Positions 37,267 to 59,755 of a stretch of 64,000 nt of DNA are shown here, piece after piece. Both the position numbers and the translations under genes were made by a program. The stretch is from contig NZ_CP036532.1 in assembly GCF_004331955.1 (NCBI RefSeq), forward strand, positions 744,001-808,000, given 5' to 3'. The DNA comes from Roseitalea porphyridii. Lineage in GTDB: Bacteria > Pseudomonadota > Alphaproteobacteria > Rhizobiales > Rhizobiaceae. Numbering within the stretch: the stretch's first letter is position 1; each line of letters starts with the position of its first letter. The notes under the pieces were generated by a model. It made no database searches, was not told where the DNA came from, and saw nothing but the letters and a program-made list of their open reading frames with translations.

Positions 37267-37725
37267 ATGAACCAGGTCCCTCAGAAAATTCAGGCGAATG
37301 CACCGCGCATCCGGAATGATTTCGTTTCCGCTGCGAGTGAAAAAGACGTCCGGCGGCGAAAGAGACCCTCCCCGATCACATGGCGCGTGACGGAAGAAGA
37401 GCGTGAAAAGCTCAAATGCCTCGCCGAAGGCATGCCCGTCAGCGCGTATATCCGCCAATGCGTTTTCGGGAAGGATGCGGTGCGGCGCAAACGCCGAAGC
37501 CATACCCCGGTGCAGGACCAGGAAGCATTGGCCAAGATTCTTGCCATGCTGGGGGCGTCACGCATCGCCAACAATCTGAACCAGCTTGCCTACCACGCGA
37601 ACACGGGATCGCTGCTTCTGGACGAGCACACGCTCGGCCAAATCAATGAAGCCTACGACCACGTGTGCGCCATGCGCGAACTGCTGATCCAAACCCTTGG
37701 CCTGGTGGAAGACCGCAAACAATGA
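37267..37725 (+). CDS. MobC-like mobilization (relaxosome accessory) protein
   Basis: The 152-residue basic protein has the MobC pattern: a ribbon-helix-helix-like segment (ITWRVTEEEREKLKCLAEGM, then PVSAYIRQCVFG) followed by the MobC motif around GASRIANNLNQLAYHANTGS. Such proteins bind the origin of transfer and help the relaxase open the strands. It overlaps the relaxase gene by four bases (ATGA), so the two are coupled. Confidence 0.85.
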   Translation: MNQVPQKIQANAPRIRNDFVSAASEKDVRRRKRPSPITWRVTEEEREKLKCLAEGMPVSAYIRQCVFGKDAVRRKRRSHTPVQDQEALAKILAMLGASRIANNLNQLAYHANTGSLLLDEHTLGQINEAYDHVCAMRELLIQTLGLVEDRKQ

Positions 37726-38993
37726 TTCTCAAAGCTTCGCAACGCGGCGGCGGCATGCAGCTTGCCCGCCACCTTCTCAATTCCCGCGACAATGATCATG
37801 TCGAGGTCCACGAGCTGCGGGGCTTCGTTTCAAGCTCGCTGGAGGGCGCATTCAAGGAAGCCTACGCGGTGTCGAGGGGGACCAAATGTACACAGTTCCT
37901 GTTCTCGCTTTCGCTCAACCCGCCTGAAACGCAGCGCGTGCCGGTCGAGGTTTTCAAAACAGCCATCGCCGACATTGAAAGGAGCGTTGGCCTGGAAGGA
38001 CAACCCCGCGCCATCGTCTTTCATGAAAAGGAAGGACGAAGGCATGCCCATTGTGTCTGGTCGCGCATCGATGCGGAGAAAATGAAGGCGATTAACCTGC
38101 CGCACTTCAAACTGAAGCTGCGTGACATGTCGCGGGAGCTTTATCTTGCACATGGCTGGCAGATGCCGCGTGGCCTGCTGAACCCGTCCGAACCCGATCC
38201 GCTCAGTTTCACGCTGGAGCAATGGCAACAGGCGAAACGAACCAGGCAGGACCCGCGTGTCATCAAGCAGATATTTCGAGACTGCTGGAACCGCTCGGAT
38301 TCCATGGCCTCCTTTGGCCATGCACTGAAAGAAAACGGCTTCTGGCTCGCGCGCGGCGATCGCCGGGGCCATGTGGCCGTGGATTGGCGCGGAGAGGTTT
38401 ACGCCATCAATCGGTGGACGGGCATTAAAGCCAAAGAAGCCCGGGCACGCCTCGGCGATCCTGCCAAGTTGCCTTCAGTGGAAAAGACAAGAGCGCTGAT
38501 AGCTGAGCGCTATGCCGGAAAGCTCCGGGAGTTCGTCGATGCGGAAATCGAAAAGTTCGCGCAGACGAACTCGGCCATCCGCCAGGAACAGACCCGGCTT
38601 GTTACCGCCCATCGCCATTCCCGCCACCTGTTGCGGAAACAGCAGGAGCAACGCGCAATAGATGAAGCGAAAGCAAGGGCGGCCCGTTTGCCGACCGGGC
38701 TCAAGGCGCTCTGGTTTCGGCTGAGCGGGAAATATCGCCAGCTATGCGCTCAGAACGAGCGAGAGTTTAGCGAAGCGAAGGCGCGCGACATACAGGAACG
38801 CCAAAACCAAATCGATGAGCAAATGCGCGAACGCCGAGCCTTGCAGGATGAACTGCGCGAACATCGTCAGCGCCATAGCCTGACGATAAAAAAGCTTTAC
38901 CGGTATATCGGTCACATCCTCAGTTTGAGCGAGCAGGAAAAACGCCAAAGCGCGACACATCAGCGATCAAGAAAGCGTCAGCCAAGCCGATAA
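37722..38993 (+). CDS. Relaxase / mobilization nuclease
   Basis: The 423-residue protein has an N-terminal relaxase domain of the MobA/VirD2 type. It opens ILKASQRGGGMQLARHLLN and carries the metal-binding histidines His101 (VFHEK) and His108/His110 (GRRHAHCVW). It would nick the transfer origin and pilot the strand. No obvious catalytic Tyr lies in the first 40 residues; Tyr48 is the first Tyr. The C-terminal half is charged and probably coiled-coil, with QEQRAIDEAKARAARLP and ERQNQIDEQMRERRALQDEL. The ATG at 37722 overlaps the mobC stop. Its 3' end overlaps the convergent ardA by 16 bases. Confidence 0.87.
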   Translation: MILKASQRGGGMQLARHLLNSRDNDHVEVHELRGFVSSSLEGAFKEAYAVSRGTKCTQFLFSLSLNPPETQRVPVEVFKTAIADIERSVGLEGQPRAIVFHEKEGRRHAHCVWSRIDAEKMKAINLPHFKLKLRDMSRELYLAHGWQMPRGLLNPSEPDPLSFTLEQWQQAKRTRQDPRVIKQIFRDCWNRSDSMASFGHALKENGFWLARGDRRGHVAVDWRGEVYAINRWTGIKAKEARARLGDPAKLPSVEKTRALIAERYAGKLREFVDAEIEKFAQTNSAIRQEQTRLVTAHRHSRHLLRKQQEQRAIDEAKARAARLPTGLKALWFRLSGKYRQLCAQNEREFSEAKARDIQERQNQIDEQMRERRALQDELREHRQRHSLTIKKLYRYIGHILSLSEQEKRQSATHQRSRKRQPSR

Positions 38994-39484
38994 ACGTAAG
39001 AAGTGCCGGCGATTTCGGTTGCCGCGTATTCAACGGCCAAGTCGCGAGCGATAGCATCAAAATCAATGTAGAACTGGAGCCGTTCCGGGATATCGCCGAA
39101 GATGCCTTCATCGACAAATTCCTGCGCCAGTTCCCGCAGCGAATTCATCTCGTAGAGGTCGATTTCCAGAGCGTCGATATCGTCGGATTCAACATCGAAG
39201 CTGTAGCCGCCTTCACCAACGGCGATAATGAAGCGGACCTTTTGCCCCTCGTCCCATTCCTCCGTGAGGTCGAAGAACCGGGCAAAGTTGGACTGGTTCA
39301 GACCAAGCGCCCTGGCCATTTCGCAATCGATGCGCTCCCCATCGATGAACTGAATCTCATATTCCTCGACGAACTGACCGAAGCGGTCGAAATTGCTTTT
39401 TGCCTTGGCGTTGTATTCCTCTGCGTTGTCGAAATAGAAGCCTTGGGCCTCGATATTGTATGGTTGGGCGTAAAGTGTAGTCAT
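38978..39484 (-). CDS. ardA: Antirestriction protein ArdA
   Basis: The 168-residue strongly acidic protein is an ArdA-type DNA mimic, which protects incoming DNA by occupying type I restriction enzymes. It shows IEAQGFYFDNAEEYNAKAKS, YEIQFIDGERIDCEMARALG and a run of acidic residues through DVESDDIDALEIDLYEMNSL. I use the ATG at 39484, although a GTG six bases earlier is in frame. Its place beside the relaxase gene is typical of conjugative leading regions, where early expression is needed after entry. Confidence 0.85.
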   Translation of the reverse strand: MTTLYAQPYNIEAQGFYFDNAEEYNAKAKSNFDRFGQFVEEYEIQFIDGERIDCEMARALGLNQSNFARFFDLTEEWDEGQKVRFIIAVGEGGYSFDVESDDIDALEIDLYEMNSLRELAQEFVDEGIFGDIPERLQFYIDFDAIARDLAVEYAATEIAGTSYVYRLG

Positions 39485-40030
39485 AGTCACCCCGCTCGTC
39501 TCAAAGGTTCAGGTCCCGCGAAGCTTCCCGACAAGGGAACACCCCGCGCATGAACCTCTGCCCAGCGGCGAGCGCCCGAATGACAAACCAAGAAAAACGG
39601 CGCCGGCGTTTGTCGCCGGCGCTCCGCAAACGGGCTGCGAGATCAAAAACAAAACGCCCCAAAGGACAACCGCTTGCGGCGCGTGGCACCACGCGATCCG
39701 ACTACACGGGAGCCGGACTTGTTCCGGCGAATGGAGCGGGCCGGAGGATTTGGCCTATTGGAAAGGCGTTTTGTGTTGATGCAAGCTGAAAAGACAGGTT
39801 CACTGCGCATGGAACAGGCGCAAGCCAGAGAAATGGCGGCACAGATGCCGCCTCCGCTCATCAATCTGTCAGGGATGGAAGCCGAATGGCCAAGACCGGA
39901 AACAGGCTTGGTTCACGACAGCCCGCCTGGACAGCAGTGTAATAGCGATTTCCGTGTGTAGGTATGAATTAGCGGTGGGTATCGGTTATATATTCTTGTT
40001 TTGTTCTTTCGAATCGGTAACCATGTTTTC
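39485..40030. other. Noncoding region with clustered inverted repeats
   Basis: About 540 bases lie between ardA and the SIR2 gene. GCGCCGGCG (39600-39608) and CGCCGGCGC (39614-39622) form a 9-base-pair hairpin; read on the minus strand it is followed by CGTTTTTC, like an intrinsic terminator pointing toward ardA. A second dyad, CGCGTGG-CA-CCACGCG, is at 39680-39695. The last 70 bases before 40031 are AT-rich and probably hold the SIR2 promoter. Short open frames here have no supporting signals, though one of about 95 codons around 39674-39961 cannot be fully excluded. Confidence 0.4.
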
Positions 40031-42589
40031 ATGAGCCATAATGCCAGCATCAAAATTCTCGCTTCGTTGCTGAGACCAGAGAATGATGCCCGACCGACCT
40101 TCTTGCTTGGGGCCGGTGCTTCTTTTTCATCGGGCGTGCCGCTCGCCGCGGAAAGCGTGCGGCGCCTAGCAAAGCAGGTTTATGCCGAAAGGGAACTGGG
40201 CGGGCAGACGCTTCCCGAACATATCAAACCCACGGAATGGATGAACTGGCTCCAGCGACAGGACTGGTTCCTCCACGGCGATGACCGGCTGGCTGAGAAT
40301 TTCCCTCTGATCATCGAACATCTGCTGAAGCCGCAGGCGTACCGCCGGCGTATTCTGCTGGAGCTGATGAGCCTGAAGGGGGAGCTTGGCGAGGGTTACC
40401 GGGCGACGGCGGATCTTGTGCTACGGGGCCTTGCCGGTACGGTACTGACGACGAATTTTGATCTCTGTCTGCCCAAGGCGCTCGGCGAGAAACATCCGCA
40501 TATCCGGCACGTCTGCGAAGTGAACCGAGGCCCGGATGATTTTAACGAGTTCAATCTTTTCGCCAGGGCGCAGATTGTTTGGCTCCACGGCAAAGCGGAA
40601 CAATACACCGACCGAAACCTGATCGAGGAAACGCGGGCGCTGGACGGCAAGCTTCTTGATTGCCTCAGGCCGCTTCTGGATTCCGCGCCGCTGATCGTGA
40701 TGGGCTATCGGGGCGCGGAGCCCTCGATTACCACGTCCCTTCTGGGCGAGGCAGATAGGAAATTCCGGCACGGGATTTTCTGGTGCATGAGGCCGGGAGA
40801 TCAGCTGCACCCGAACGTGGCCGCGCTGTCCGAGAGACTGGGGCCAAACTTCCAGAGGCTGGAGATAAATGGCTTCGATGAAGCCATGAGCGACCTGAAC
40901 GTTGAACTGGCAGGCGTTCAGCGATTTGTAACGACGCCCGCGGGAACGCAGGATGTGCGCTTCGACGATCAGCTTTGTGACGGCGCGACCTGGGCGGATA
41001 TCGATGCGGACCTGGCGCTCTCCACGCTCAAGAAATACTGCCAGAAGCTGAACCGCGGCGACATCAGTTCTGAGCAGCTAAGGCCGCTGATGCGCGAGAT
41101 CGGGCTGCTTGTCCAAGACAAGAATGGCGCGGCCGTGCCGAGCAATGGATGTGTGCTGCTATTTGGGAGGACCCCGGCGCGCTTTTTCCCCTGCTCAGTC
41201 ATTTCCGCAACGATAGCAGGGAAGAAAAGAGCCGTGTTTGAAGGCAACCTTATGGATCAGTATAAGGCGGCCCTGGAATGGCTGGAAAGCGACGAGGTCA
41301 ATCCCCCGATCAAGGTCAAAGGCAAGCACAGGCACAGCATGCGGCGGGCCTATCCGGAGCGTGCGCTTGTTGAGCTTCTCGTCAACATGATCGTACACAG
41401 GGACTATGAGTCGGATGAACCGTCGCTGATCAATGCTGGCGGGAATGCCGAGATACGGTTTGCCAACCCCGGCGGCATGTCGGAGCGCCTGAAAAACCGG
41501 CTCAGGACGGATGATGAAGGCGCGTTTGTGCCAGTTGCAGAATTCAGCGATCTCAGAAACCGGGCGCTATGTGACGTATTTTTTGGGATCAGTGCCATGG
41601 AGCGGGCCGGTACGGGACTGAGCGATGCCATGGATCTGAGCACCCAGGCCGGCGGGGCGGCGCATTTCGCTTTCCCGCCCGGGAACACGGGGTTCGTCGC
41701 CAGGATTCTCCGGCCTGGTGCCTCTGCCGGTTCGGCCTCTATTGCGATCGATACACGGCCGGTGGGCACCTATACGATCAACTCTCTTATGTTTACCGCG
41801 CTGCCGGAGACCGTAACTCGGCTGAAAATCAACGGCGGATGGCGTGATCTGGAAAGCCATGTCCCGCTGGAGCAGGCCGGGACATTTGTTTTTGAGTATC
41901 GCAGCGGCGATCTGTGGACCTTCCTGCCGCCGGCAATGGCCAATGTGCTGTTCGATGCCGTCATTGCCGAGAAAGCACGCTCCATCCCGTTATCGGAGGC
42001 CGACAGCGATCCAATTCTTCATAGGAAAGTGGCCTGGCTGATCCGGAAACATTTCGAAGGTCACATCAGGACGTTCGCGGATGACGGGCTGATCATTGAA
42101 CTTACGAAGAACCGTCGGCCCGCGAAACGTGCGTATTTCAAGAGCCGCAACAAGGACAACCGGACCCTCACATACGACACGCCCCACCGGAAGGGGATCC
42201 GGCGGGACGTGGTAAAAAAGCGCGGAGACAACGGCAAACCGTGGTTCGAATGCGAAGGATTTGGATATGAGGTTATTCGCCTCGGCAGCGGCTGGGGTGT
42301 GCGGATAAAGCCGTTTTACATGTTCACGAAACAGGACGGCGTCACGCCCCTGCCGGGTTACCTGAGGACGCGGCGCTCAACGCGGCGTATCCGTTTTGAC
42401 CGGAACACCAATGTCGATAGCGATCTGGTTTTCTGGGGCCGGTTTCTCTCGCGCGGCCAGCAGACGATCAATATTGGCGGCGACCACGTTCCGGACCTTT
42501 TGCTGGAGGGAAGTTTTTTCACACAGGATGTAACTGAAGAAGGGCTCATGGATCATGACGATTCAGATGAAAATCGACGTACTGCATGA
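40031..42589 (+). CDS. SIR2 - HATPase_c_4-like - APAZ-like fusion protein, partner of short Argonaute
   Basis: The 852-residue protein has three visible parts. Residues about 15-290 are a SIR2-like NADase or NAD-binding domain, with GAGAS at 27-31, TTNFD at 140-144, His186 in WLHGK and GYRGAEPS at 225-232. Residues about 330-560 resemble the C-terminal part of Schlafen/AlbA_2 and RecG-like ATP-binding proteins. There one sees a VLLFGRTPARFFP segment, then LVELLVNMIVHRDYE (446-460), FANPGG (477-482) and RNRALCDVFFGISAMERAGTG. The last 250 residues resemble APAZ, with a basic RKGIRRDVVKK run, GWGVRIKPFYMFT and a closing FWGRFL. Known SIR2-APAZ partners are, as I recall, clearly shorter and lack the middle part. 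The ATG at 40031 is used; a TTG at 40001 is weaker. It overlaps the Argonaute gene by 35 bases, so the products very likely form a complex that senses invader nucleic acid and depletes NAD. Confidence 0.82.
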   Translation: MSHNASIKILASLLRPENDARPTFLLGAGASFSSGVPLAAESVRRLAKQVYAERELGGQTLPEHIKPTEWMNWLQRQDWFLHGDDRLAENFPLIIEHLLKPQAYRRRILLELMSLKGELGEGYRATADLVLRGLAGTVLTTNFDLCLPKALGEKHPHIRHVCEVNRGPDDFNEFNLFARAQIVWLHGKAEQYTDRNLIEETRALDGKLLDCLRPLLDSAPLIVMGYRGAEPSITTSLLGEADRKFRHGIFWCMRPGDQLHPNVAALSERLGPNFQRLEINGFDEAMSDLNVELAGVQRFVTTPAGTQDVRFDDQLCDGATWADIDADLALSTLKKYCQKLNRGDISSEQLRPLMREIGLLVQDKNGAAVPSNGCVLLFGRTPARFFPCSVISATIAGKKRAVFEGNLMDQYKAALEWLESDEVNPPIKVKGKHRHSMRRAYPERALVELLVNMIVHRDYESDEPSLINAGGNAEIRFANPGGMSERLKNRLRTDDEGAFVPVAEFSDLRNRALCDVFFGISAMERAGTGLSDAMDLSTQAGGAAHFAFPPGNTGFVARILRPGASAGSASIAIDTRPVGTYTINSLMFTALPETVTRLKINGGWRDLESHVPLEQAGTFVFEYRSGDLWTFLPPAMANVLFDAVIAEKARSIPLSEADSDPILHRKVAWLIRKHFEGHIRTFADDGLIIELTKNRRPAKRAYFKSRNKDNRTLTYDTPHRKGIRRDVVKKRGDNGKPWFECEGFGYEVIRLGSGWGVRIKPFYMFTKQDGVTPLPGYLRTRRSTRRIRFDRNTNVDSDLVFWGRFLSRGQQTINIGGDHVPDLLLEGSFFTQDVTEEGLMDHDDSDENRRTA

Positions 42590-44057
42590 GCCCCGGATCG
42601 AGTTTTCGAATGCGAAAACCGACATCGATCCGCGGCGTGGGCTGCCCCGAAACGGTCCTTCGGATAACCGGGGTCTGCGGCGCGTAAGACTGGGATTCGT
42701 CGGACTTGCCGACGACGTCCAGGCGACGGTGGGATGGTTTTCGAAACTGGAGCAGTTCATTCCCGCCAAGGAAAGCAATTCGGCGCGATTTCGCAACTGG
42801 CCCGGCCTGAAGAAGGCCCTGAACGCGGAATTCCTGATGGAGGAGCGGCACCAGCGGCATATCAATGCCTCGAAATATGAGCTGTTTTTCAAGGAAGCGC
42901 AGCGCGGCCAGAAATTCGGCGAACTGGTTGAATTGTTCGAGGACGAGATAAGCGGTCTGTATGGGGATGAGGCGCCGGACTGCATCATTGTCTGCATCAG
43001 GCCCGAACTAGGCGATCTGAGAGTTATCAATCCGGGTCTGACGCCCGAAGAGCGCCATGCGCTAGAGATGCTGCGGGCAGAGGAGGAAAGTGATCAGCTT
43101 GCGCTTTTTCAGCCCTCGCCCGACGAGCTTGAGGCTGCGAGTGCCCTCTACACCATGGCGGACGACCTTCTGTTCCGGACTTTTTACCGCGCGCTGAAAG
43201 CGCGGATCATGTCGGACAGTCAGGCGGTGCCCATACAGGTCATTCGCCGCGACACGATCGATCGCCCGGACGACAAGGGTCATAGTCATGCGACGCGCGC
43301 GTGGAATGCGGCCGTGTCAATCTACTACAAGGCCAAGGGGATACCCTGGCGGCCCGCCGACCTGCCAAAGAATGTGTGCTTTGTCGGCGTGTCGTTCCAT
43401 CACATGAAAAAGCGGGGCGGCCATCTCGTTTATGCGAGTGTGGCGCAGGCATATTCAACGGATATCGAACCCTACGCGATCAAAGGCGCCAACATCGATC
43501 ACAGCCAGAAGTGGGACCGGCAGCCTTATCTGAACGAGGCCCAGGCCAGGGACCTGATGGAACAGATTCTGGAGGAATACGAAAAGCGCGCGGGCGTCAG
43601 TCCCGACCGGGTAGTGATCCACAAGACAACGCACTACCAGCCGGAGGAGGAAGCCGGGTTTATGCAGGGTGCCAAAGGCCGCGTCGCCAACTGCGATCTG
43701 ATCTGGCTGCGCAGCACGTCGTTCCGCATTGTCCGGAAAGGAACCGAAGAGCCCTGGCGCGGAACGCTCTGCTCTGTAGATGGGCACAACTACCTGTTCA
43801 CAAGCGGCTATATACCCTGGTGGAATGAATTTCCGGGTATGCATATTCCCGCTCCACTTGAAATCGGCAGCATGAACCATACCGATATAGCAGCGCGCTC
43901 TCGGGAAATTCTGGCTCTCACCAAGATGAACTGGAACTCAAGCGACGGAATTACGCGCCTTCCCATTACCCTGCTGTTTGCGCGCCGTGTGGGCGAACTG
44001 ATGTGTGAACTGTCGGACAACGCGACGCCCAATCCGTCCTTCCGCTTTTATGTTTAG
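42555..44057 (+). CDS. Short prokaryotic Argonaute (MID-PIWI), catalytically degenerate
   Basis: The 500-residue protein has the size and layout of short pAgos, with a MID part (DCIIVCIRPELGDLRVI, about residues 142-158) and a PIWI part from about residue 270 to the C-terminal Val500. The nuclease tetrad is not intact. The strand that should carry the first Asp reads FVGVSFHHMKKRGG (Ser280), and the position of the third Asp reads VVIHKTTHYQP (Thr358-Thr359). So it should bind guide and target without cutting. PIWI landmarks RGGHLVYASVAQAYS and the closing ITLLFARRVGELMCEL are present. No PAZ domain is seen. It overlaps the upstream SIR2 fusion gene by 35 bases. Functionally characterised relatives (SIR2-APAZ/Ago) kill the infected cell by NAD depletion. 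Confidence 0.85.
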   Translation: MTIQMKIDVLHEPRIEFSNAKTDIDPRRGLPRNGPSDNRGLRRVRLGFVGLADDVQATVGWFSKLEQFIPAKESNSARFRNWPGLKKALNAEFLMEERHQRHINASKYELFFKEAQRGQKFGELVELFEDEISGLYGDEAPDCIIVCIRPELGDLRVINPGLTPEERHALEMLRAEEESDQLALFQPSPDELEAASALYTMADDLLFRTFYRALKARIMSDSQAVPIQVIRRDTIDRPDDKGHSHATRAWNAAVSIYYKAKGIPWRPADLPKNVCFVGVSFHHMKKRGGHLVYASVAQAYSTDIEPYAIKGANIDHSQKWDRQPYLNEAQARDLMEQILEEYEKRAGVSPDRVVIHKTTHYQPEEEAGFMQGAKGRVANCDLIWLRSTSFRIVRKGTEEPWRGTLCSVDGHNYLFTSGYIPWWNEFPGMHIPAPLEIGSMNHTDIAARSREILALTKMNWNSSDGITRLPITLLFARRVGELMCELSDNATPNPSFRFYV

Positions 44058-44069: not shown

Positions 44070-45275
44070 TTATCCGGCCTGCTTCAGCCCTGCTGTCTTT
44101 GGGTCATAGACGTAGCCGGCGATCGTACCGTCCTTGATCTTTTCGACTACTTCATCGATCACAAACAGCGGAACCAGGAACCATTCGCGCGGAATGACCG
44201 GATTACCGAAGCGGTCCTTGATCTCGATATCAAGCCGCGCCGGGCCGAAGACACGGTGCAGCAGGTTCTCCAGTCTGGTGCGGTTGATGTTGTAGAGTTC
44301 ATAGGTCGCGACGATTTCGACATCAGCCAGCAAAAATGTAGCATCAAGCTTGGCATTCGCAATGCGTCGTTCGACGCTGCCGCCCGTCACGCCGATCTTG
44401 TGCAGGACATCGCGGTTTTCAGCCACAAGCGGATGATCGGATTTGCTGCGCAGGACATAGATAGTTCCGCTGGCATTATCGCCTTCTGTAGTCTCACCAG
44501 CAAATAACGGCCCTGCCACGGGATCAGTAATGCGGCGTCCCGCCTCGTCCTTGTAGAGCGCCCGCTGGAGCGAGCGCAGGAGCAGGTTGCTCTCGGTAGC
44601 GTTGGAATAAATTACGCGAAGGCGCGCATCGGTTTCCCCGTTCGGTGCCTTGAAGGATTCTCCCACGTCCGCGACGTATGCAGTCTGGCCGCCCAGAATG
44701 AAAAACTGGCCGGCCGTGATCTCCGCCTTGAGAAAACCGGCATCTTTGACAAAACGCCGCGTCGTGCGTACGCCCATATCAAGGTCTTTCTGCACCTGCT
44801 CGAAAAGCGGCTTGAATATCGGAAAATCCTCGCAGCGTTCGCGATTGGCGATATCATCGGCAGCTTGCTTTTCTGCATTCGAACGAACATGGCGAAGCTC
44901 CGTGATCGGCGCCATTTCCGCTTCCACGCCAAGTTCGGCTAGGAGCGCATCATCATCCATCGCGTCTGTAAGCGGGGTGGTGGTGATTGCCTGTCCGCCA
45001 AGGATCCCTTGAAGGTCAAGGGGCTCAAGCAGTTGGCGGCAGTCTTCCTGCTCCCGGAGCCGGTCCAGCCGAACAGCATACAGCCGCTCAAAAATGTCCC
45101 GGTCTTCACCATGCTGCGGGGTGCGGCCATGCTCCTCGACGAAGCGCTGAATATCCTCAAAGCCGGCGATGATGCGTTCGTCCCGCGGCGTGCGCCTGGC
45201 GGCCGTGTTCATCTCGACCTCAACGCCAAGTTCACTCAGCAGTTCATCATCTTCCTGCGTAAATTCCCTAGCCAT
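44070..45275 (-). CDS. GIY-YIG (T5orf172-like) nuclease family protein
   Basis: The 401-residue protein has a C-terminal GIY-YIG/T5orf172-like domain, residues about 270-355: GTIYVLRSKSD, then HKIGVTGGSVERRIANAK with Arg303/304, and LENLLHRVFG with the likely catalytic Glu336. The N-terminal half contains two copies of an acidic motif, DDELLSELGVEVEM (about 9-22) and DDALLAELGVEAEM (about 108-121). It is the last gene of the six-gene operon and overlaps the helicase gene by eight bases. I infer that it is the DNA-cutting subunit. It is convergent with the Argonaute gene, 12 bases away. Confidence 0.82.
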   Translation of the reverse strand: MAREFTQEDDELLSELGVEVEMNTAARRTPRDERIIAGFEDIQRFVEEHGRTPQHGEDRDIFERLYAVRLDRLREQEDCRQLLEPLDLQGILGGQAITTTPLTDAMDDDALLAELGVEAEMAPITELRHVRSNAEKQAADDIANRERCEDFPIFKPLFEQVQKDLDMGVRTTRRFVKDAGFLKAEITAGQFFILGGQTAYVADVGESFKAPNGETDARLRVIYSNATESNLLLRSLQRALYKDEAGRRITDPVAGPLFAGETTEGDNASGTIYVLRSKSDHPLVAENRDVLHKIGVTGGSVERRIANAKLDATFLLADVEIVATYELYNINRTRLENLLHRVFGPARLDIEIKDRFGNPVIPREWFLVPLFVIDEVVEKIKDGTIAGYVYDPKTAGLKQAG

Positions 45276-47340
45276 TCGCGGCCTCCGCCTTCATTCGGGC
45301 AAGAAAGGTAACGCCTTCGGCCATGCGCTTTTCCCAGGCATCGGGGGACGTGATTGAAGGAAGCCGCCCGCGCTCCTGCTTGAATTTGAGCGCGCGCCTT
45401 GCCAGATCGCGAGCTTCTTCCGGTGTCAGCTGCACCTTCTTGGCAGAGATAATTGCCGCCACCTGTTTTAGGCTCTCTTCGCTCATGGTCTTGGCGAGGA
45501 TGGCATAAGCCTCGCTGAACGGGTTGATACGATCAATCAGGTCAATATCCAGTTCGCGCACATCCATGGCGAACTTGCGCACGCCATCGACAAAAGCGGT
45601 GTTGGCGCTCTTTTCACCCTCGTTTCCGTCACTGCCAAGTGCGATTTCCTTGGCTTTCTGCGTCAAGCTGAGGGCCGCAATGGCGTGCTGGCGCACGGCT
45701 TCCTGATCCTCATCATCTAATTCGGGGTACTTGTCTTTAATGATCTTGCCCAGGCGTACCTGGGTCAATTCTTCAGGCAGGGTCTCACCGCCGGAGTGTT
45801 CGCTGTCAAACAGGCCGCGTTCCAATGCCTGCTTATCCTGAACGAAAGCAGCGATCACCTCGTTGAGGTCTTCCTGACAGATACGCGCCGCTTCCTTGCT
45901 CTTCGGTTCGGCAAGACCCTTGATTTCAATCTGGAACTGCCCGCTGTCTTCATCGAAGCCGACATTGCAGGCGTTGGAATCATAGCCTCCCTCGCCATAG
46001 TCGAACCCCTCAATCGGTCCGCTGTTTGGGTTCTTGGGAACGAAATTGAATCGCGGCGCCAACACCTGTTCCATCAGCAGGCTGGCTGCGATCGCTTTCA
46101 GTGTGTCGTTCACGGCTTCCGTAACAGCCTCTTCTGATGCATCCGGTTCGGCGATTAGATTGGTGAAACGGGCACGTGTCTTGCCGGGCGCGTCACGCGT
46201 CGCGCGGCCGATGATTTGCACAATTTCGGTCAGGCTGGAGCGGTAACCGACGGTGAGCGCATGTTCGCACCAGATCCAGTCAAACCCCTCTTTGGCCATG
46301 CCCAGAGCAATGATGATGTCCACATGATCGCGGTTATTCTTCTGACTGGCATCTTTTAGTGCCGCTGACACCCTGTCGCGTTTGGCTGGATCATCATCGA
46401 CCAGATCGGCGATCCTTAAGGTGCGCCCGTCCGCTGCCTCTACCAGCTGGAAGCCCGTCGCCGGGTCGGTGCCCTGCCACTCGCCCAGCTCCTCGATGAT
46501 GTGTTCGACTTCCCTGATCTTGTCCTTTGTGCTTTCGCGCGAATTAACCGATGGAATGTGAATGATGGTCTTTTCGGATGGATCAAGAACGCTCAGGATG
46601 TCGTCCGAGTAGGCCCCGGAATAGAAGAAATAGCCGATATCAAGTGACTTGAGATATTTGTAGCCGTTGAGCTGCTCATAATATGTGTAGGTAACCGTAT
46701 CGAAGCGTGCCTCGTCATGGGGCATTAACACCGGCTCGGCATCGCCACGGAAGTACGATCCGGTCATGGCGACGATATGCACCATGTCCCGGGCAATGAA
46801 CTCTCCCAGATGGGTGCCTAGCTTGTTGTCAGGATTAGCCGAGACGTGATGGAACTCGTCCACCGCGATCAGCCGGTCGTCGAAGGCATCTACGCCAAAC
46901 TTGTCCACGGCAAAGCGGAAGGTGGCGTGAGTGCACACCAGCACACTGTCATCACTGGTAAGGAAAGTGCCGACCGAACTGACCTTGCCGCCATTGTCCG
47001 ATCCCGGCGCATTGCAGAGGTTCCATTTCGGCTCGACGGTCCAGTCGGCCCAGAAACCGTGTTTGCTCAGCGGCTCATCATGGAAACTTGAGCCGATGGA
47101 TTTTTCCGGAACGACAATGATCGCCTGGCGCAGGCCCTGATTGTTGAGCTTGTCGAGCGCGATGAACATGAGCGCCCGGCTCTTGCCGCTGGCCGGCGGC
47201 GATTTGATAAGAAGATACTGCTCCCCCCGTTTCTCATAGGCGCGCTCTTGCATCGGGCGCATGCCAAACTCGTTGGACCTGGTTGAGCTGCCGTTCTGGG
47301 CATAGGTAACGGATACGGATGGAACAGATTTTGCCTTCAT
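45268..47340 (-). CDS. DEAD/DEAH-box helicase family protein
   Basis: The 690-residue superfamily 2 helicase/translocase resembles the Res-type ATPases of restriction systems. Walker A SPPASGKS is at 47-54, motif II is DEFH at 161-164, motif III lies in VAMTGSYF, and motif VI is in IVQIIGRATRDAPGK. The C-terminal 250 residues are helical and acidic, with no nuclease motif visible. It overlaps the preceding gene by four bases and the GIY-YIG gene by eight. In the operon it would translocate along DNA marked as foreign and hand it to the nuclease. Confidence 0.88.
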   Translation of the reverse strand: MKAKSVPSVSVTYAQNGSSTRSNEFGMRPMQERAYEKRGEQYLLIKSPPASGKSRALMFIALDKLNNQGLRQAIIVVPEKSIGSSFHDEPLSKHGFWADWTVEPKWNLCNAPGSDNGGKVSSVGTFLTSDDSVLVCTHATFRFAVDKFGVDAFDDRLIAVDEFHHVSANPDNKLGTHLGEFIARDMVHIVAMTGSYFRGDAEPVLMPHDEARFDTVTYTYYEQLNGYKYLKSLDIGYFFYSGAYSDDILSVLDPSEKTIIHIPSVNSRESTKDKIREVEHIIEELGEWQGTDPATGFQLVEAADGRTLRIADLVDDDPAKRDRVSAALKDASQKNNRDHVDIIIALGMAKEGFDWIWCEHALTVGYRSSLTEIVQIIGRATRDAPGKTRARFTNLIAEPDASEEAVTEAVNDTLKAIAASLLMEQVLAPRFNFVPKNPNSGPIEGFDYGEGGYDSNACNVGFDEDSGQFQIEIKGLAEPKSKEAARICQEDLNEVIAAFVQDKQALERGLFDSEHSGGETLPEELTQVRLGKIIKDKYPELDDEDQEAVRQHAIAALSLTQKAKEIALGSDGNEGEKSANTAFVDGVRKFAMDVRELDIDLIDRINPFSEAYAILAKTMSEESLKQVAAIISAKKVQLTPEEARDLARRALKFKQERGRLPSITSPDAWEKRMAEGVTFLARMKAEAANG

Positions 47341-48515
47341 TGCTTATGGTCTTTCGCTGTTAAATTACCTTTCTGCCAGGCCTCATCGATCAGATCCGGA
47401 CCGGCCAGGAAAAATTCACCGCCCAGTGAAGCGCCTGCCGGCTGTCGGCAAAGAACTTCCTGCATGGCACGCTCGCCGGCTTTCGCATGGTTGGAACTGG
47501 GATGCGGGTCAAAGCCAGACAAAACGCCCGAATAGAGTACTTCCCACCGGTACGCGCCGCGCGGCAGGGCGCGATTGTGATCATCACAGCGCGTCTGTGG
47601 GCTTTTGGAAAACCCTGCCTTTACGATCATCCGGCCCCGGGCCGGTTCGCCCAGAAAGACATCGGCATCACCGCGCAGCGTGAGAACGTAAAGATGCTTG
47701 GGGCCTTCAGACTCGCGTGTGACAAAGGGATTCTGGGAGACAGGGCCGGCCTTGCTCGGCGCGAGGATTTCCTTCGCGGTTCCCGGCGTTGAGCCGATGA
47801 TGGGGTTTTCTCCGTAGACATCGACCTCCTGAAGATCGAGGTTCAGGATATTGAGCGCCTCCTGACGCGAGAGCCTTACCCCGCGCGCCCCGATATGCTG
47901 CCAAGCCCCGGAAGAGGTTGCCTTGGGGGCAAACTCACGCACATCCATCCGGCTTTCCGGCGTCACGCGCCAGGCGCGCGTTGCCTTCACGGCAAAGTTC
48001 CATTTGCCGGTTCGCTCGGGATCGCGCTCCTTGGCATCCCATTCATGGGGCGCCATGAACTGGCGGGTATGGCCAAGCCGGTGAGAACATTGCTGTATGC
48101 CGATCACCTGGCCGAGATCGTCTTTCGACGCCTTTCCAGCTCCGTATACGACAACCAGCACGCCGGGCCTGCTGCCATCGAGAAAGCTTTTCCGGCGGCC
48201 CTCGTCGGCAAAGCCCAGCAATCCCCACTCCTCTGGCCGGAAGCCGTAGAAGCTTGTCAACCAGACATTCGGCGGATCGCTATAAATCGCCTCCATCGGC
48301 GACATCAGCTCACCGGGCGCGTGCAGCTCCTCAAATCGCTGGATGCTGCCATAATCGCGGACAATCAGCCCCGGTGCCGATATCATCATCTTGTTGCCCG
48401 GGGCGTCCCAACCATGCACCTCGAACATGTTGCGATAGCTTCCGTAATAGCTATTGGCGATTCTTTGGATCGCCTGCGCATCGCCTCCTTGTGTGAAATT
48501 CGCCGCCTTTGCCAT
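47337..48515 (-). CDS. Unknown protein with PUA-like and GIY-YIG-like segments
   Basis: The 392-residue protein has two suggestive segments. Around residues 115-150, GVLVVVYGAGKASKDDLGQV followed by IGIQQCSHRLG looks like the beta-rich PUA/EVE-type fold that reads modified bases. Around residues 270-340, LYVLTLRGDADVFLG, then VKAGFSKSPQTRCDDHNRAL resembles a GIY-YIG core like that of the last gene in the operon. Neither is certain. I use the ATG at 48515 because AAGGAG lies 6 bases before it; a GTG at 48518 is too close. It overlaps its neighbours on both sides, so it is probably a complex subunit. Confidence 0.6.
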   Translation of the reverse strand: MAKAANFTQGGDAQAIQRIANSYYGSYRNMFEVHGWDAPGNKMMISAPGLIVRDYGSIQRFEELHAPGELMSPMEAIYSDPPNVWLTSFYGFRPEEWGLLGFADEGRRKSFLDGSRPGVLVVVYGAGKASKDDLGQVIGIQQCSHRLGHTRQFMAPHEWDAKERDPERTGKWNFAVKATRAWRVTPESRMDVREFAPKATSSGAWQHIGARGVRLSRQEALNILNLDLQEVDVYGENPIIGSTPGTAKEILAPSKAGPVSQNPFVTRESEGPKHLYVLTLRGDADVFLGEPARGRMIVKAGFSKSPQTRCDDHNRALPRGAYRWEVLYSGVLSGFDPHPSSNHAKAGERAMQEVLCRQPAGASLGGEFFLAGPDLIDEAWQKGNLTAKDHKQ

Positions 48516-49369
48516 CACCCACTCCTTTGGTCAAAGCGGCGCAGAAACAGGCGTGCTGTCACCAGATTGATCTGAAGGCGGAAGGTCGCGTCTTCTTCTT
48601 CAGAAAGCCCGGGATGCCCGCCATGCGGATGCATCCGGCTCATCAGTCCCTGGACAAACTGCGGCTTCTGATTGTTCGCATTCCATTCGTTATAATCAGC
48701 CAGAAGGAATGGCGGCTGAAGAGCGCCGAGAAAGTCACGCTTGGCTTTGCTGTCGCCTGTACCTGTATAGCCAAGCCGGTCGGCGATTTCGTTCAAGTAG
48801 CTCTCATAGAGATTGCGCAGGGCACCATTTGCCGATGCCCATTCGCCTCTGCTGAAAGCCGAAACCGCCTGCTTGAGGTGTCCCTTGGCAACGGTGAACC
48901 CATGCCGGTCCAGAAGCTGTTCGATTTCGCTTTCAGCTTCGCGAAACTCCAGTCCCGGCACATCGGAGGGGAGCATGCGCACAAGCTGAACCGAGGTTTC
49001 TACCTGCGGACTTCCCCAAGGGTGATCGGCGTCAATCTCGGTCTGTGTCTCAGCAATTTCAAATCCGTCGAATCGAAGGCCAGCCACAAGCCTTCTCCAG
49101 TTATCGGAACTCTTTACGCCTGGCGGTGCCGTGATTGCTCTTTCGACCAGCGCCCTTGCAAGGCCAACGCGGCCGGACTCGGTGACAACTTCTCCGTTCT
49201 CCTCAATAGCGAACTTTGCGAGACCCGCCACGCGCGCAGATTTGCTGCCCGTTGCATAGCGGCCGGCAAGCTCCCACTCCACTTCGAGGATTTCCATGTC
49301 ACTGTGCGAACTGAACGCGGAAATCACCTCAGCTGCGGCGACGACGGTCATGCGGTTGAATTCGCTCAT
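48515..49369 (-). CDS. Unknown protein with HEPN-like C-terminus
   Basis: The 284-residue protein has an N-terminal half that is mixed and not recognised. The C-terminal half is all-helical and resembles HEPN-type or abortive-infection proteins: LLDRHGFTVAKGHLKQAVSA, then FSRGEWASANGALRNLYESY and, near the end, HPHGGHPGLSEEEDATFRLQ. A canonical RxxxxH RNase motif is not evident, so RNase activity is doubtful. The four-base ATGA overlap with the methyltransferase and the one-base overlap with the next gene place it inside the defence operon. Confidence 0.6.
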   Translation of the reverse strand: MSEFNRMTVVAAAEVISAFSSHSDMEILEVEWELAGRYATGSKSARVAGLAKFAIEENGEVVTESGRVGLARALVERAITAPPGVKSSDNWRRLVAGLRFDGFEIAETQTEIDADHPWGSPQVETSVQLVRMLPSDVPGLEFREAESEIEQLLDRHGFTVAKGHLKQAVSAFSRGEWASANGALRNLYESYLNEIADRLGYTGTGDSKAKRDFLGALQPPFLLADYNEWNANNQKPQFVQGLMSRMHPHGGHPGLSEEEDATFRLQINLVTARLFLRRFDQRSG

Positions 49370-52128
49370 GCCGCGCCTGCCTTTTGTTTTGCCGGCTTGG
49401 CCGCAGTCATTTTAGTGTAGAGCTCGAAGAGCTTTTCCAGCCGCTCGGTATCATTCTTGAACCGCCGACCGATATAGATGCGCTCCAGCACCTCATCGTT
49501 ACGGTCATGCGCAGAGCGCAGATCGTCCGGCATTTTCGACATGCCGTTAGAAACTTCGTACAATTCAGCAATAGTAGCTGGAAAATATAATTCACGAATA
49601 AGTAATAATTCTTTCGCACTATAAATTAGATCAGCCTTATTTTTCTCCGTTAGCCGAGGGACGGGAAATGTATTCCATCCAAGTGTGTTTGAGTACGAAT
49701 AATCGGATCGTAGACGCCCACAAATCGCTGCAATCCACGATAAATGAAGCCTAGAAGACAAGATAGCTAAGCACCATAGCGGTGCATCCCGCATAAAGAA
49801 TGTCTTATTTGTTGGTATTGTGCGCTCGTCCACTAGACCGATAGGCAGATACTCGCGGTTTTCTGACGACACGATAGGTATGAGGATTTTTCTATGCTCC
49901 TCACCCTTACGCTCACGAAATTGATGTGGTTTGGCGGCTAGTTTGTTTACCGCAGAATCTTTGGTCGCTAGTCGATCGTTGCGAACTGATTCAATGCGCT
50001 GACTGACTTCGGGAAACTGATTGGCAACGTCCAGATCGGAATCCTCCAGCCAAAGGCAATACCTCTCCACGCCGTTGATGAACTCTGTCGAGCCCAGAAA
50101 CCGCTTCAGCAACTGAATAGGGAATCCATCAGCCAATAGCCTACGCACTTCGCCCGGCGTCAAGATTAGGCCCGCCGATTTAGAATAATAGACACCGTAA
50201 TCCATCGCCTCCTCAATAAATATCGGATTACGCGATGCCGGAACAATGTCTATTTTGTGCTCGGTCAAATAGGGATTGATATTACCAACCGCTCGCCTGC
50301 TATCTCCTTCTATCAAGTAGCGGTCACCGGCATCGTTCGCGTCAAGGCCGACAATTATCACGGTTACACCTGCGCGGTTCCTTGCCAGGTTAGACCAAAT
50401 GAATGACCTGTACGCAAAGCGTATTCTAAAACCCAAATCTGTCAGTATTTTCCAAGTAATCGGGACTTGCTGTCCCTGACAAAGACTGTTGGTCGCGACA
50501 AAAGCGAACGGCGCACGACAATGGCTATTGTACTGAGCGGCTTTTACAAGCCACGCTCCCACGTAATCAACGTTCTTCCATTTGTTTGTGTAGCGAGAAA
50601 ATACGGCATGCAGATCTTCCTTTTGATCGTCAGTTTGCCTGCGAGTACCGGTAAAGGGCGGATTTCCGCAGATGTAAGTTTCTCCGCCCTCGTTTTCGAA
50701 GTCGATTTGCGCCTGATCGATCGGCGTGTGAAACAGGTCATCGGCGTGGTGCTTCACGCCCGTACCTGTGGGTGGGCAAATGCTTAGCCAGTCCAGCCGC
50801 AGGGCGTTGCCACAGGTGATCCAGTTCATCGCATCGAGCGGCAGGAAGTCCCGCAGGGCTTCCTTCTGGCCGCGATAGAGAACGTCGCACTGATATTCCG
50901 CGATGATGAGCGCCAGCCGCGCGATCTCCGCCGGGAAATCACGCAGCTCTATGCCGCGGAAATTGGTCAGCGGGATATCGGACTTGCGGTCGTCCTCTCC
51001 GCGCCGGCGGTTGATCTCGGCTTCTATGCTGCGCATTTCCTTGTAGGCGATGACGAGGAAATTTCCCGATCCGCAGGCCGGGTCGAAAACCCTGATCTTC
51101 GCCATTCGGTTTCTGAGATTCAGGAGCTTGCGTGGGTTGTCGCTGGCCTCTTCGAGATTTTCCCGCAGATCATCGAGAAAAAGTGGATTGAGCACCTTCA
51201 GGATGTTGGGCACAGACGTGTAGTGCATCCCGAGCGCGCCGCGCTCCTCATCATCGGCGACAGCCTGGATCATCGAACCAAAGATGTCCGGGTTGATCTT
51301 CTTCCAGTCGAGATTGCCGATATGGATGAGATAGGAACGCGCGATTCTCGAAAAACGCGGCACCTCCACCGACCCGGAAAACAGCCCGCCGTTGACGTAT
51401 GGAAACTGGTCCGCCCAAGGGCGGAAGCTGCTCGCTTTCCGATGCTCGGATTTCGTGTTCATCGCCCGGAAGATTTCCGAGATCACGAAATCCGTGTTGG
51501 AGGCATCGCGATCCGTGTATTGCTCCAGCGTGCGTGTAAACAGCCCTTCACCGTTGAAGATGTCGGTATCTTCGGCGAAGAAGCAGAAGATGAGCCGTGC
51601 CATGAAATGGTTCATGTCCGGCCGACGGGCAGCGCTGGCCCAATCGGGATTGTCCTTGAGCAGCTCGACATAAAGCCGGTTGAGCCGCCCGGTCGCCTTG
51701 ATGTCGAAGGCGCTTTCGCGGACCTGCTTGACAGTAGTGATGCCGGCCAGCGGTAGGAAGAAACCGAAATGGTCGGGGAAATCAGGATAGTCGCAGACGA
51801 CGACCTCGCCGCTATTCAGATCCTCCGCCTGGAATTCGTTTCCGTCGGTCGCCAGCACGAACTTGGCCTTGGCGCGCGCCGTGGCGGGGCTGGCTTTCAG
51901 GGCTGTGACTGTACTCGTCACCTCGCCTTCGGGACATACCTTGATATGGATGTTGCTGGTTTGGAGGACACCGCCCAGGTCAGACTTGTTCGATGCACCA
52001 GTGCGAAGGCGCTTGATGGTGGTCGGCTTGTTGCCAAAGGCCTCGAGGAATGCGTAAGGAAACTCAGCCGGGTCGAACGGCTGCTGGGCCAATGCTGATA
52101 TCGCCTCCTCGATTTCGACCGCGTTCAT
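49366..52128 (-). CDS. Class I SAM-dependent DNA (adenine-N6) methyltransferase, MmeI-like
   Basis: The 920-residue DNA methyltransferase has motif I FDPACGSGNFLVIAYKEMR at about 348-366 and motif IV GNPPFTG at 488-494, the NPPF form of gamma-class N6-adenine enzymes. A long C-terminal part probably includes target recognition (NRAGVTVIIVGLDANDAGDR onward). Layout is similar to MmeI-type enzymes, but I see no D-ExK nuclease motif in the N-terminal 150 residues, so cutting is likely left to other subunits. It follows the ribbon-helix-helix regulator and starts a chain of overlapping genes. It would methylate self DNA. The GC content drops visibly between 49,500 and 50,700, hinting at an exchanged recognition segment. 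Confidence 0.87.
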   Translation of the reverse strand: MNAVEIEEAISALAQQPFDPAEFPYAFLEAFGNKPTTIKRLRTGASNKSDLGGVLQTSNIHIKVCPEGEVTSTVTALKASPATARAKAKFVLATDGNEFQAEDLNSGEVVVCDYPDFPDHFGFFLPLAGITTVKQVRESAFDIKATGRLNRLYVELLKDNPDWASAARRPDMNHFMARLIFCFFAEDTDIFNGEGLFTRTLEQYTDRDASNTDFVISEIFRAMNTKSEHRKASSFRPWADQFPYVNGGLFSGSVEVPRFSRIARSYLIHIGNLDWKKINPDIFGSMIQAVADDEERGALGMHYTSVPNILKVLNPLFLDDLRENLEEASDNPRKLLNLRNRMAKIRVFDPACGSGNFLVIAYKEMRSIEAEINRRRGEDDRKSDIPLTNFRGIELRDFPAEIARLALIIAEYQCDVLYRGQKEALRDFLPLDAMNWITCGNALRLDWLSICPPTGTGVKHHADDLFHTPIDQAQIDFENEGGETYICGNPPFTGTRRQTDDQKEDLHAVFSRYTNKWKNVDYVGAWLVKAAQYNSHCRAPFAFVATNSLCQGQQVPITWKILTDLGFRIRFAYRSFIWSNLARNRAGVTVIIVGLDANDAGDRYLIEGDSRRAVGNINPYLTEHKIDIVPASRNPIFIEEAMDYGVYYSKSAGLILTPGEVRRLLADGFPIQLLKRFLGSTEFINGVERYCLWLEDSDLDVANQFPEVSQRIESVRNDRLATKDSAVNKLAAKPHQFRERKGEEHRKILIPIVSSENREYLPIGLVDERTIPTNKTFFMRDAPLWCLAILSSRLHLSWIAAICGRLRSDYSYSNTLGWNTFPVPRLTEKNKADLIYSAKELLLIRELYFPATIAELYEVSNGMSKMPDDLRSAHDRNDEVLERIYIGRRFKNDTERLEKLFELYTKMTAAKPAKQKAGAA

Positions 52129-57456: not shown

Positions 57457-58047
57457 ATGAGGATTGGCTATGTGCGGGTGTCCGATGACGATCAAACCGA
57501 AGCGCTGCAAATGGATGCTTTGCAGGCCAGTGGCTGCGACCTGATCTATGGCGATCACGGCATTTCCGGCGCACGAGTTTGCCGCAAAGGTCTGGACCAG
57601 GTTCTCGGTGGCTTACAGTCCGGCGATACGCTGGTCGTCTGGAAACTCGATCGTCTCGGCCGGTCCACCGTGCACCTGCTTCAGCTCCTCGATGATCTGA
57701 GAGAGCGACAGGTTGATTTCATATCCGTGACGCAGGGCATCGACACGACGACGTCGGTCGGACGGATGGTCTATGGCCAGCTTGCCGTCTTCGCGGAATT
57801 CGAGCGCGAGCAAATCCGCGAGCGGACAAAGGCGGGAATGGCTGCCGCCAGACGTCGCGGAAAACATATCGGCAGACCCCGCAAGCTGACAGCTGTTCAG
57901 GTTTGTCTCGCAGCCAAACGGCTGGAAAACCAGAGCGATACGATTATTGGTATGGCAAGAGATTTCGGGGTTGCGCCTGTTACGCTCAGCAGGGCGCTGA
58001 ACGCACGGCGAAATGTGAAGGTCAGTCGGGCACGGGACCTGACTTAG
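57457..58047 (+). CDS. Serine recombinase (resolvase/invertase family)
   Basis: The 196-residue protein has the small serine recombinase layout. The catalytic Ser is in MRIGYVRVSDDDQ, at residue 9. Arg and other active-site residues are in VVWKLDRLGRS, the helix FAEFEREQIRERTKAGMAAA follows, and a C-terminal helix-turn-helix of Hin/Tn3 type reads RDFGVAPVTLSRALNA. It would resolve multimers or invert a segment at res-like sites such as the palindrome at 57340. Its 3' end overlaps the convergent ankyrin gene by 26 bases. Confidence 0.93.
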   Translation: MRIGYVRVSDDDQTEALQMDALQASGCDLIYGDHGISGARVCRKGLDQVLGGLQSGDTLVVWKLDRLGRSTVHLLQLLDDLRERQVDFISVTQGIDTTTSVGRMVYGQLAVFAEFEREQIRERTKAGMAAARRRGKHIGRPRKLTAVQVCLAAKRLENQSDTIIGMARDFGVAPVTLSRALNARRNVKVSRARDLT

Positions 58048-58714
58048 GCTCCTTCCATTTCATATGGGGATGCCTCACGGACATTATGCTAGCGACTATG
58101 TCGGGAAAGTGCCGTCCGTGTTCCATGGCCGTCTTTCCGGTAAAGTCAGTTATTCCAGTGTCTATCCCCTCCTGTCGAAGAAGGAACTCGGTCAGACGTT
58201 TAAGACCGCTGCCCGAAGCGGCCATCAATGGAGTTACGCCAGTCCGCTTGTCCTGATAGTTCAAAGCAGATGGATTATCTTGCAGAAGGGCCTCTACGCC
58301 TTCGATGTTGTTTTGCAGGCTCAACGATATTATTTCCGCGGGATCACGCTCTGAAATTTCGATTTCAAGAACTTCCTCGTCCTTAAGCCGGCGAATAAGC
58401 TTCTGGACCGCTTGGTTGTCATTTTGGAAGGCGATATCCCAAGGCGTTCTCAACCAGCTATCCCGCACTGCCATATGGTTGCTGCCGCGCCTGAACAGTT
58501 CTTCCGCGAGTTTCAAATGCTCAGATGATATCTCAACTTGGCCTTCCGGAAGAACCGCAACTGCATGAAGCGGCGAAAAATCCAGTCGCTCTCCGGAAAG
58601 ATCGATTTCACCGCCGAGAATCTGCCACGCCAAATTCCATTTTTTTTCGAAGATAGCCAAATTTAGGCGGTAGGCGGCCATTTGTGCTTTGCTAAGGTTT
58701 TCCTTCTTGTCCAT
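58022..58714 (-). CDS. Ankyrin-repeat protein
   Basis: The 230-residue protein carries ankyrin-type units: DFSPLHAVAVLPEG, a degenerate WLRTPWDIAFQNDNQAVQKL, and clearer ones GVTPLMAASGSGLKRLTEFL and DFTGKTAMEHGRHFPDIVA. There is no signal peptide or second domain, so it is probably a cytoplasmic protein-binding module. It is convergent with the resolvase gene; a link to defence or transfer is possible but not shown. Confidence 0.75.
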   Translation of the reverse strand: MDKKENLSKAQMAAYRLNLAIFEKKWNLAWQILGGEIDLSGERLDFSPLHAVAVLPEGQVEISSEHLKLAEELFRRGSNHMAVRDSWLRTPWDIAFQNDNQAVQKLIRRLKDEEVLEIEISERDPAEIISLSLQNNIEGVEALLQDNPSALNYQDKRTGVTPLMAASGSGLKRLTEFLLRQEGIDTGITDFTGKTAMEHGRHFPDIVASIMSVRHPHMKWKEPKSGPVPD

Positions 58715-58811
58715 CGAATATGAATTCTACGAGTCTTCTCGACCTGTAAGGTGGCTGTTTGTCCAGCCTACCGGCCGATAATAACCCGTCATTTATAGCT
58801 GAATTATACAT

Positions 58812-59672: not shown

Positions 59673-59714
59673 TGGAGAAGTCTAGGCAGAAAACGCCGGA
59701 TGGGAAATCCGATG

Positions 59715-59755
59715 CACTCACCAAATGGGACGAAATCCCGCTCAGTTGGTGAGTG
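59715..59755. repeat. Nested inverted repeat in a divergent intergenic region
   Basis: CACTCACCAA (59715-59724) and TTGGTGAGTG (59746-59755) are perfect 10-base inverted arms. Inside them GGGA (59727-59730) and TCCC (59736-59739) form a second stem around CGAAA. Lying between two divergent genes, it could be an operator for the HTH-like protein at 58812 or a folded DNA/RNA signal. Confidence 0.5.

Follow-up and report, generated by a model that had tools for sequence, protein, structure and literature searches.

An intact short-Argonaute gene pair with a SIR2–GHKL–APAZ partner protein in Roseitalea porphyridii

The window analysed here is a 64,000-nucleotide stretch of the Roseitalea porphyridii contig NZ_CP036532.1 (positions 744,001 to 808,000), and our subject within it is a pair of overlapping genes at 40031–44057 that encode a short prokaryotic Argonaute (pAgo) and its partner protein. 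Both open reading frames (ORFs) are intact: the partner, P0001, occupies 40031–42589 on the forward strand (852 amino acids plus stop), and the short pAgo, P0002, occupies 42555–44057 on the same strand (500 amino acids plus stop). The partner joins a SIR2 domain, a GHKL domain and an APAZ domain in that order, its SIR2 active-site residues are conserved, its pAgo belongs to the S2 side of the short-pAgo tree, and all three of its parts are under purifying selection. We consider it probable that the pair is a two-gene short-Argonaute defence system: a guide-triggered, assembling enzyme that consumes nicotinamide adenine dinucleotide (NAD), hereafter an NADase, with a GHKL domain that regulates or helps the assembly. 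The features of the locus are as follows.

40031–42589, forward strand: P0001, SIR2–GHKL(HATPase_c_4)–APAZ protein (ORF; PADLOC PDLC02402; full-length relatives)
40031–40924, forward strand: SIR2 NADase-like domain, residues about 1–298 (GsSir2 profile match; Pfam SIR2_2; invariant motifs)
40454–40456, forward strand: Asn142 codon, first of the SIR2 Asn–His dyad (gapless alignment to GsSir2 Asn142; invariant)
40586–40588, forward strand: His186 codon, second of the dyad (gapless alignment to GsSir2 His186; invariant)
40937–41338, forward strand: connector of the type preceding HATPase_c_4 in Schlafen-like proteins, residues 303–436 (common to free-standing relatives in the alignment; within the 3lmm match)
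41339–41746, forward strand: GHKL (Bergerat) domain, HATPase_c_4, residues 437–572 (AlphaFold2 model; Foldseek)
41372–41407, forward strand: N-box ELLVNMIVHRDY, Glu448–Tyr459 (six residues kept in 18/18 family rows)
41465–41476, forward strand: loosened G1-like motif NPGG, Asn479–Gly482 (Asn479 in 14/18 family rows)
41609–41617, forward strand: G2-like motif GTG, Gly527–Gly529 (both glycines in 18/18 family rows)
41756–42562, forward strand: APAZ domain, residues about 576–844 (9om4_A and 9qbp_A profile matches; Foldseek matches to SPARHA and SPARDA)
42555–42589, forward strand: 35-base overlap of the P0001 and P0002 genes (coordinates; equal overlap in close rows)
42555–44057, forward strand: P0002, short pAgo (MID–PIWI) with degenerate PIWI motifs (PADLOC pAgo_I; PDB 9om4_B and 9qbp_B)

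The pairing of the two genes is a stable trait. A scan of genome contigs found 204 encoded relatives of P0001; among the best 80, which were kept, 12 are full-length matches and 68 cover essentially the middle of the protein only, and a pAgo gene lies directly downstream of 12/12 of the full-length ones. The two genes share exactly 35 bases in 10 of the 11 close rows (the window and L002–L011; 32 bases in L008), counts that depend on the start codons chosen for each row. An annotated Mesorhizobium pair likewise overlaps by 35 bases, and in the distant rows L012 and L013 the two genes lie without overlap. The 35-base overlap suggests that the two genes are translationally coupled. This Mesorhizobium pair, at 48% identity, is plasmid-borne, and no other of the 10 plasmid records gave a match covering 80% of the query.

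The source genome, a single 3.54 Mb contig, holds one P0001 match at an expectation value (E) of 0.001, and neither P0001 nor P0002 matched NCBIfam at that threshold. At E 1e-20, relatives occur in 5 of the 385 genomes of the class sample (source genome included), three of which encode longer versions with open frames of 929–951 codons.

Anatomy and conservation of the partner protein

Residues 22–296 of P0001 match the SIR2 part of the SPARSA protein GsSir2 (E 2.9e-25 with a profile of 13 sequences), and Pfam SIR2_2 is found barely past its cut-off (E 1e-5). Asn142 and His186 align without gaps to the same-numbered GsSir2 residues, and both are invariant across 14 aligned proteins together with the GAGAS loop (27–31) and the TNFD motif (141–144); the HG at 186–187 is likewise invariant in the family alignments. 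In the available passages of PMC10781750, the SIR2–APAZ protein GsSir2 consumes NAD catalytically, and its N142A and H186A variants cause almost no NAD loss.

We regard it as unlikely that this SIR2 domain produces a signal molecule or alters a target instead of emptying the NAD pool. SIR2 domains differ in what they do, and their range of activities would accommodate such a role, as would the presence of ThsA and DSR2 in the Foldseek list for the full-length model. However, the nearest solved sequence is the NAD-consuming GsSir2 (PMC10781750, same passages), and no Thoeris-like partner was named among the scanned neighbours (two sets of 10 proteins each).

The segment between the two ends of the protein, residues 303–572, has a confidently predicted fold. 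Its AlphaFold2 model, built on a 61-sequence alignment, has a predicted local distance difference test score (pLDDT) of 92 and a predicted template-modelling score (pTM) of 0.90, and a Foldseek search identifies it as a Bergerat fold, with DIP2311 (3lmm) first at 1e-12 over 265 columns and GHKL CA domains of histidine kinases following from 8.7e-5. DIP2311, an AlbA_2-type protein with HATPase_c_4, thus matches most of the segment; it has no SIR2 or APAZ match, whereas in P0001 a SIR2 domain precedes the segment. Pfam HATPase_c_4 is past its cut-off in three of the six relatives scanned (L112, L113 and L013; not L114, L012 or L089). In free-standing relatives, a Schlafen-like N-terminus stands ahead of the segment, its positions 3–59 matching SLFN14 at 7.3e-6 (profile of 11); no SLFN chain appeared among the PDB matches of the P0001-family profile at E up to 0.01.

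Much of the GHKL signature is kept. Throughout the 18 family rows, which include five found otherwise (L089 and L111–L114), Glu448, Asn452, His456, Arg457, Asp458 and Tyr459 are invariant, and so are Arg509, Asn510, Gly527 and Gly529. The N-box Glu and Asn and the G2 glycines of GHKL proteins are present in 18/18 rows. Gly527 and Gly529 are also present in all 62 free-standing HATPase_c_4 rows, a set that excludes 6 of the 68 loci because their ORFs fell short of 350 amino acids and whose N-box conservation is partly due to selection, the scan patterns having included NMIVHRDY. Two other positions differ between the sets: residue 447 (41369–41371) is Arg in 62/62 free-standing rows versus 2/18 family rows, and residue 532 (41624–41626) is Arg in 60/62 versus 0/18, with Asp in 17/18 family rows. 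These changed residues may mark an altered partner surface.

Over 13 sequences, the middle averages 55.6% pairwise identity, APAZ 55.9% and SIR2 63.6%. Ratios of non-synonymous to synonymous substitution rates (dN/dS) for the middle were sought in six pairs, one of which was not computable. Three close pairs gave 0.073, 0.054 and 0.025, the last of them with few changes, and two wider pairs gave 0.097 and 0.092 with saturated dS. In the same three close pairs, the ratios are 0.045, 0.061 and 0.181 for SIR2 and 0.036, 0.134 and 0.046 for APAZ. All three parts of P0001 are under purifying selection, and on this evidence the middle is a conserved and very probably functional domain. A decaying middle domain is ruled out by the low ratios of the close pairs.

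At the C-terminal end, residues 576–844 match the APAZ region of the HNH–APAZ protein 9om4_A of SPARHA (E 8e-11) and residues 580–811 that of the DUF4365–APAZ protein 9qbp_A of SPARDA (E 9.9e-5). SPARSA chains matched the P0001-family profile through SIR2 only, not through APAZ, and P0001 matches the PADLOC REase-APAZ models, not the TIR-APAZ ones (E up to 1). For the full-length AlphaFold2 model (pLDDT 77.3, pTM 0.48), the ten best Foldseek matches are solely SPARSA, SPARHA, SPARDA and 3lmm chains.

A first-pass annotation, made from the letters of the window, had proposed this three-part order with a HATPase_c_4 middle and an APAZ end, and had described a 35-base overlap between an 852-residue SIR2 protein and an inactive-looking short pAgo with Ser280 and Thr358/359 in its motifs. 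The profile matches, the structure models and the ORF coordinates bear out each of these points. Its statement that SPARSA-type SIR2–APAZ partners are clearly shorter was also correct (587 amino acids in GsSir2; 593–647 in four S1B partners).

Kinship of the short pAgo and earlier descriptions

P0002 is recognized by the PADLOC pAgo_I model at 9.5e-137, and its best PDB matches are 9om4_B (2e-58) and 9qbp_B (9.7e-45). It has the general make-up of short pAgos, namely MID–PIWI without PAZ and an APAZ protein encoded next door in an overlapping gene. The protein reads VGVSFHH at 277–283 and IHKTTHY at 355–361, which places Ser280 and Thr358/359 at what the first-pass annotation assigned as catalytic Asp sites; on these letters P0002 is inactive-looking. 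According to the available text of PMC6299218, all short pAgos are substituted PIWI* variants.

Our pAgo tree comprises 31 pAgos with known neighbours. Sixteen of 21 pAgo places entered it in addition to the window's own; of the rest, one was a second piece of the same gene and three, in the L115, L128 and L133 regions, were excluded as broken or fragmentary. The near-copies L003, L004 and L006 were also excluded. Partner labels for the SMEK and DUF4365 types come from Pfam for L118 and L121 and from PADLOC models for the others. Twelve rows of the SIR2–GHKL–APAZ type form one group (support 100/99), which has the three long versions as its neighbours at 89/92. A split with 100/99 support separates the 26 S2-side rows (DUF4365, SMEK-like, Mrr-TIR and SIR2–GHKL partners) from the five S1 rows; the inner forks of the S2 side do not decide between S2A and S2B. 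P0002 is thus on the S2 (nuclease/TIR) side, outside the S1 clade.

The closest solved systems each share part of this arrangement. SPARDA and SPARHA (9qbp, 9qcc, 9jsb and 9om4) have the nearest pAgo and APAZ by sequence, and several have been solved as filaments (titles of 9om4 and 9qcc; available text of PMC12205087), but their effectors are DUF4365 or HNH nucleases, whereas the N-terminus of P0001 is SIR2. SPARSA (GsSir2/Ago; 8jkz and 8in8) has a SIR2 domain with the Asn–His dyad, APAZ and a short pAgo, as here; its partner lacks a middle domain, unlike P0001, in which the connector and the GHKL domain, about 270 residues together, separate SIR2 from APAZ. Insertion of a domain into an otherwise ordinary SPARSA (S1) system would account for this list of parts and for the resemblance of the SIR2 domain to that of SPARSA. 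We nevertheless judge it very improbable: S1-type pAgos fall elsewhere in the pAgo tree, and the APAZ matches are to SPARHA and SPARDA. In a 23-row SIR2 tree, which is unrooted and has long branches, the SIR2 domains of 13 rows moreover form a group of their own against S1 and other SIR2 rows (100/99), which suggests that SIR2 was recruited independently in this protein type. Ordinary SPARSA (S1) membership is ruled out by the pAgo tree and the APAZ matches.

The first-pass annotation knew of no study of the three-part order, but the idea that this order was undescribed is not supported. PADLOC-DB 2.0.0 (2023) contains a model, PDLC02402 (Aga_SIR2-PNTD1-PNTD2), on which P0001 residues 10–813 align to 5–811 of 876 at E 1.1e-137, and another, PDLC02418 (Aga_SIR2-Kinase-PNTD1-PNTD2), which P0001 matches at E 3.1e-80 with the best stretch at 403–811. 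The length class and domain order of these models are those of P0001, and the match to the first is near end-to-end and includes the middle. P0001 represents an 850-amino-acid branch more distant from both models than the branch of 920–950 amino acids, whose members L112–L114 match both at E 4e-297 or lower. By ORF, these longer SIR2–GHKL–APAZ proteins have 922–950 amino acids and form a sister branch; they may be better subjects for tests of nucleotide binding. At E 1e-40, PDLC02418 found 0 of 398 phylum genomes and 0 of 14 controls, a search that also missed the source genome and is uninformative on absence.

Publications had described the combination as well. The available text of PMC10810196 (2023) mentions a short-pAgo APAZ protein with SIR2 and histidine kinase domains, an APAZ-fused double-effector partner beside a short pAgo that has the domain combination of P0001; the entry is given there without accession, domain order or experiment. 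In the accessible part of PMC6299218 (2018), APAZ orthogroup og_40 is SIR2_1 fused with Schlafen, and APAZ group IIb has 13 SIR2 proteins. Like P0001, og_40 combines SIR2 and APAZ with a Schlafen-related part and belongs to a pAgo operon; P0001 retains the HATPase_c_4 part, and AlbA_2 is not reported in it by Pfam at E up to 1. Compared by description rather than by member list, og_40 is likely the same subclass. The terms Schlafen, RecG, HATPase, AlbA and GHKL do not occur in the main text of PMC2743648, and the passages available from PMC10952713 do not mention Schlafen. The architecture has thus already been catalogued (2018–2023) and our locus is a further example; for this subclass, the middle segment is largely an ordinary part of described SIR2–APAZ proteins, the finding by which the first-pass annotation had said its claim would fail.

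A candidate guide-triggered NADase and its rivals

From this anatomy we infer complex formation, a type of guide and target, NAD depletion and whatever role the GHKL domain has, in a scheme that would run as follows. The inactive pAgo would pair with the partner's APAZ end in one guide-binding heterodimer. Pairing of the guide with invader DNA would make heterodimers assemble, by analogy with SPARSA and SPARDA; for SPARDA, the available text of PMC12205087 describes assembly triggered by the target. Assembly would bring SIR2 domains together, so that NAD is consumed and the infected cell is stopped. The GHKL domain, placed between sensor and effector, would most likely help or restrain the assembly, possibly on nucleotide binding. 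Many GHKL proteins dimerise around bound adenosine triphosphate (ATP), so nucleotide-assisted assembly is a reasonable guess.

Several observations weigh against this scheme. Pfam HATPase_c_4 is weak in P0001 itself (E 0.0029, under its cut-off), and the G1 motif is loosened: where GHKL proteins have the Asp of DxGxG, P0001 reads NPGG, with Asn479 in 14/18 family rows and Ser in 4/18, and Gly481 is kept in 15/18 family rows versus 60/62 free-standing ones. Free-standing HATPase_c_4 proteins too have Asn at position 479 (62/62). By this comparison of residues, conservation of the nucleotide site is less strict than in free-standing kin and, since G1 is loosened and the domain falls under the Pfam cut-off, P0001 may bind nucleotide weakly or not at all. 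The loosened G1 would equally fit a spacer that no longer binds nucleotide. Moreover, the full-length pTM is too low to place the domains relative to one another, and long branches are flagged in the pAgo tree, among them the fused S1A row and the Mrr-TIR rows. By titles and abstract openings in searches of open-licence PMC papers, no experiment on the SIR2–GHKL–APAZ class was found, so the guide type, the target and the activity proposed here are taken from other subclasses.

It is a real possibility, if short of an even chance, that the middle is a structural spacer or protein–protein platform that has lost nucleotide binding and serves only to determine the spacing and geometry of SIR2 relative to APAZ once the complex has assembled. 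The G1 changes (Asn479 in 4/18 rows and Gly481 in 3/18), the sub-cut-off HATPase_c_4 match and the changes at 447 and 532, where nearly all free-standing proteins have Arg, would fit such a spacer. Glu448, Asn452, Gly527 and Gly529, on the other hand, stand in every family row, although they may be kept for the fold alone, and dN/dS is similarly low in the middle and in SIR2.

A division of labour between two effectors, in which SIR2 consumes NAD and the GHKL domain acts as a separate kinase or ATP hydrolase in the activated complex, seems to us improbable. The fold does match histidine-kinase CA domains, and the available text of PMC10810196 suggests that dual-effector APAZ proteins, one with SIR2 and a histidine kinase, may have two functions. 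However, no Pfam histidine-kinase phospho-acceptor domain was found in P0001 at E up to 1 (HMMER filters drop most matches above 0.1), and the G1 motif is loosened.

A stricter version of our preferred reading, the assembling NADase with a regulatory GHKL domain, is that firing also needs nucleotide bound by the captured Schlafen-type domain, target DNA alone being insufficient. We hold this requirement to be rather unlikely. Cellular ATP or a phage-altered nucleotide would then be the second signal, and the pair a two-input Argonaute switch.

Genomic setting and significance

The neighbourhood looks like a mobile defence island. Upstream, at 37267–39490, are genes for a MobC/NikA-like protein, a MobA-type relaxase and ArdA, the last with a relative in L111 (36% identity). 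Downstream, a reverse-strand cassette at 44070–52128 encodes a T5orf172 protein, a ResIII-like helicase, two unnamed proteins without a Pfam, PADLOC or NCBIfam match, and an MmeI-type IIG enzyme; farther on, 57457–62438 holds a resolvase-like ORF (named from its sequence) and a VirD4-like ORF whose NCBIfam matches are all under their cut-offs. Homologues of the T5orf172 protein and the helicase (78–82% identity) lie near the same pAgo pair in 2 of 17 loci, L002 and L004, both from Brucella, a count that is a lower bound with flanks of about 8 kb or less compared per side. The MmeI-type enzyme has a homologue in L002 at 63% identity, and L010 holds a remote one (26%). A mobilisable or conjugative element may carry the pAgo pair.

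At another locus, L115 (G617:C23), the pAgo shares 59% identity with P0002 and contains one in-frame stop, and no SIR2-protein match is listed among the same-strand ORFs shown there; this pAgo is likely a decayed copy.

The Roseitalea locus is a compact, intact and well-conserved example of a catalogued architecture. Here a SIR2 domain is joined to a pAgo/APAZ pair from the S2 (nuclease/TIR) side, which suggests that short-Argonaute lineages exchange effector domains. If the GHKL domain does gate the NADase, short Argonautes would respond to a second input in addition to guide–target pairing.

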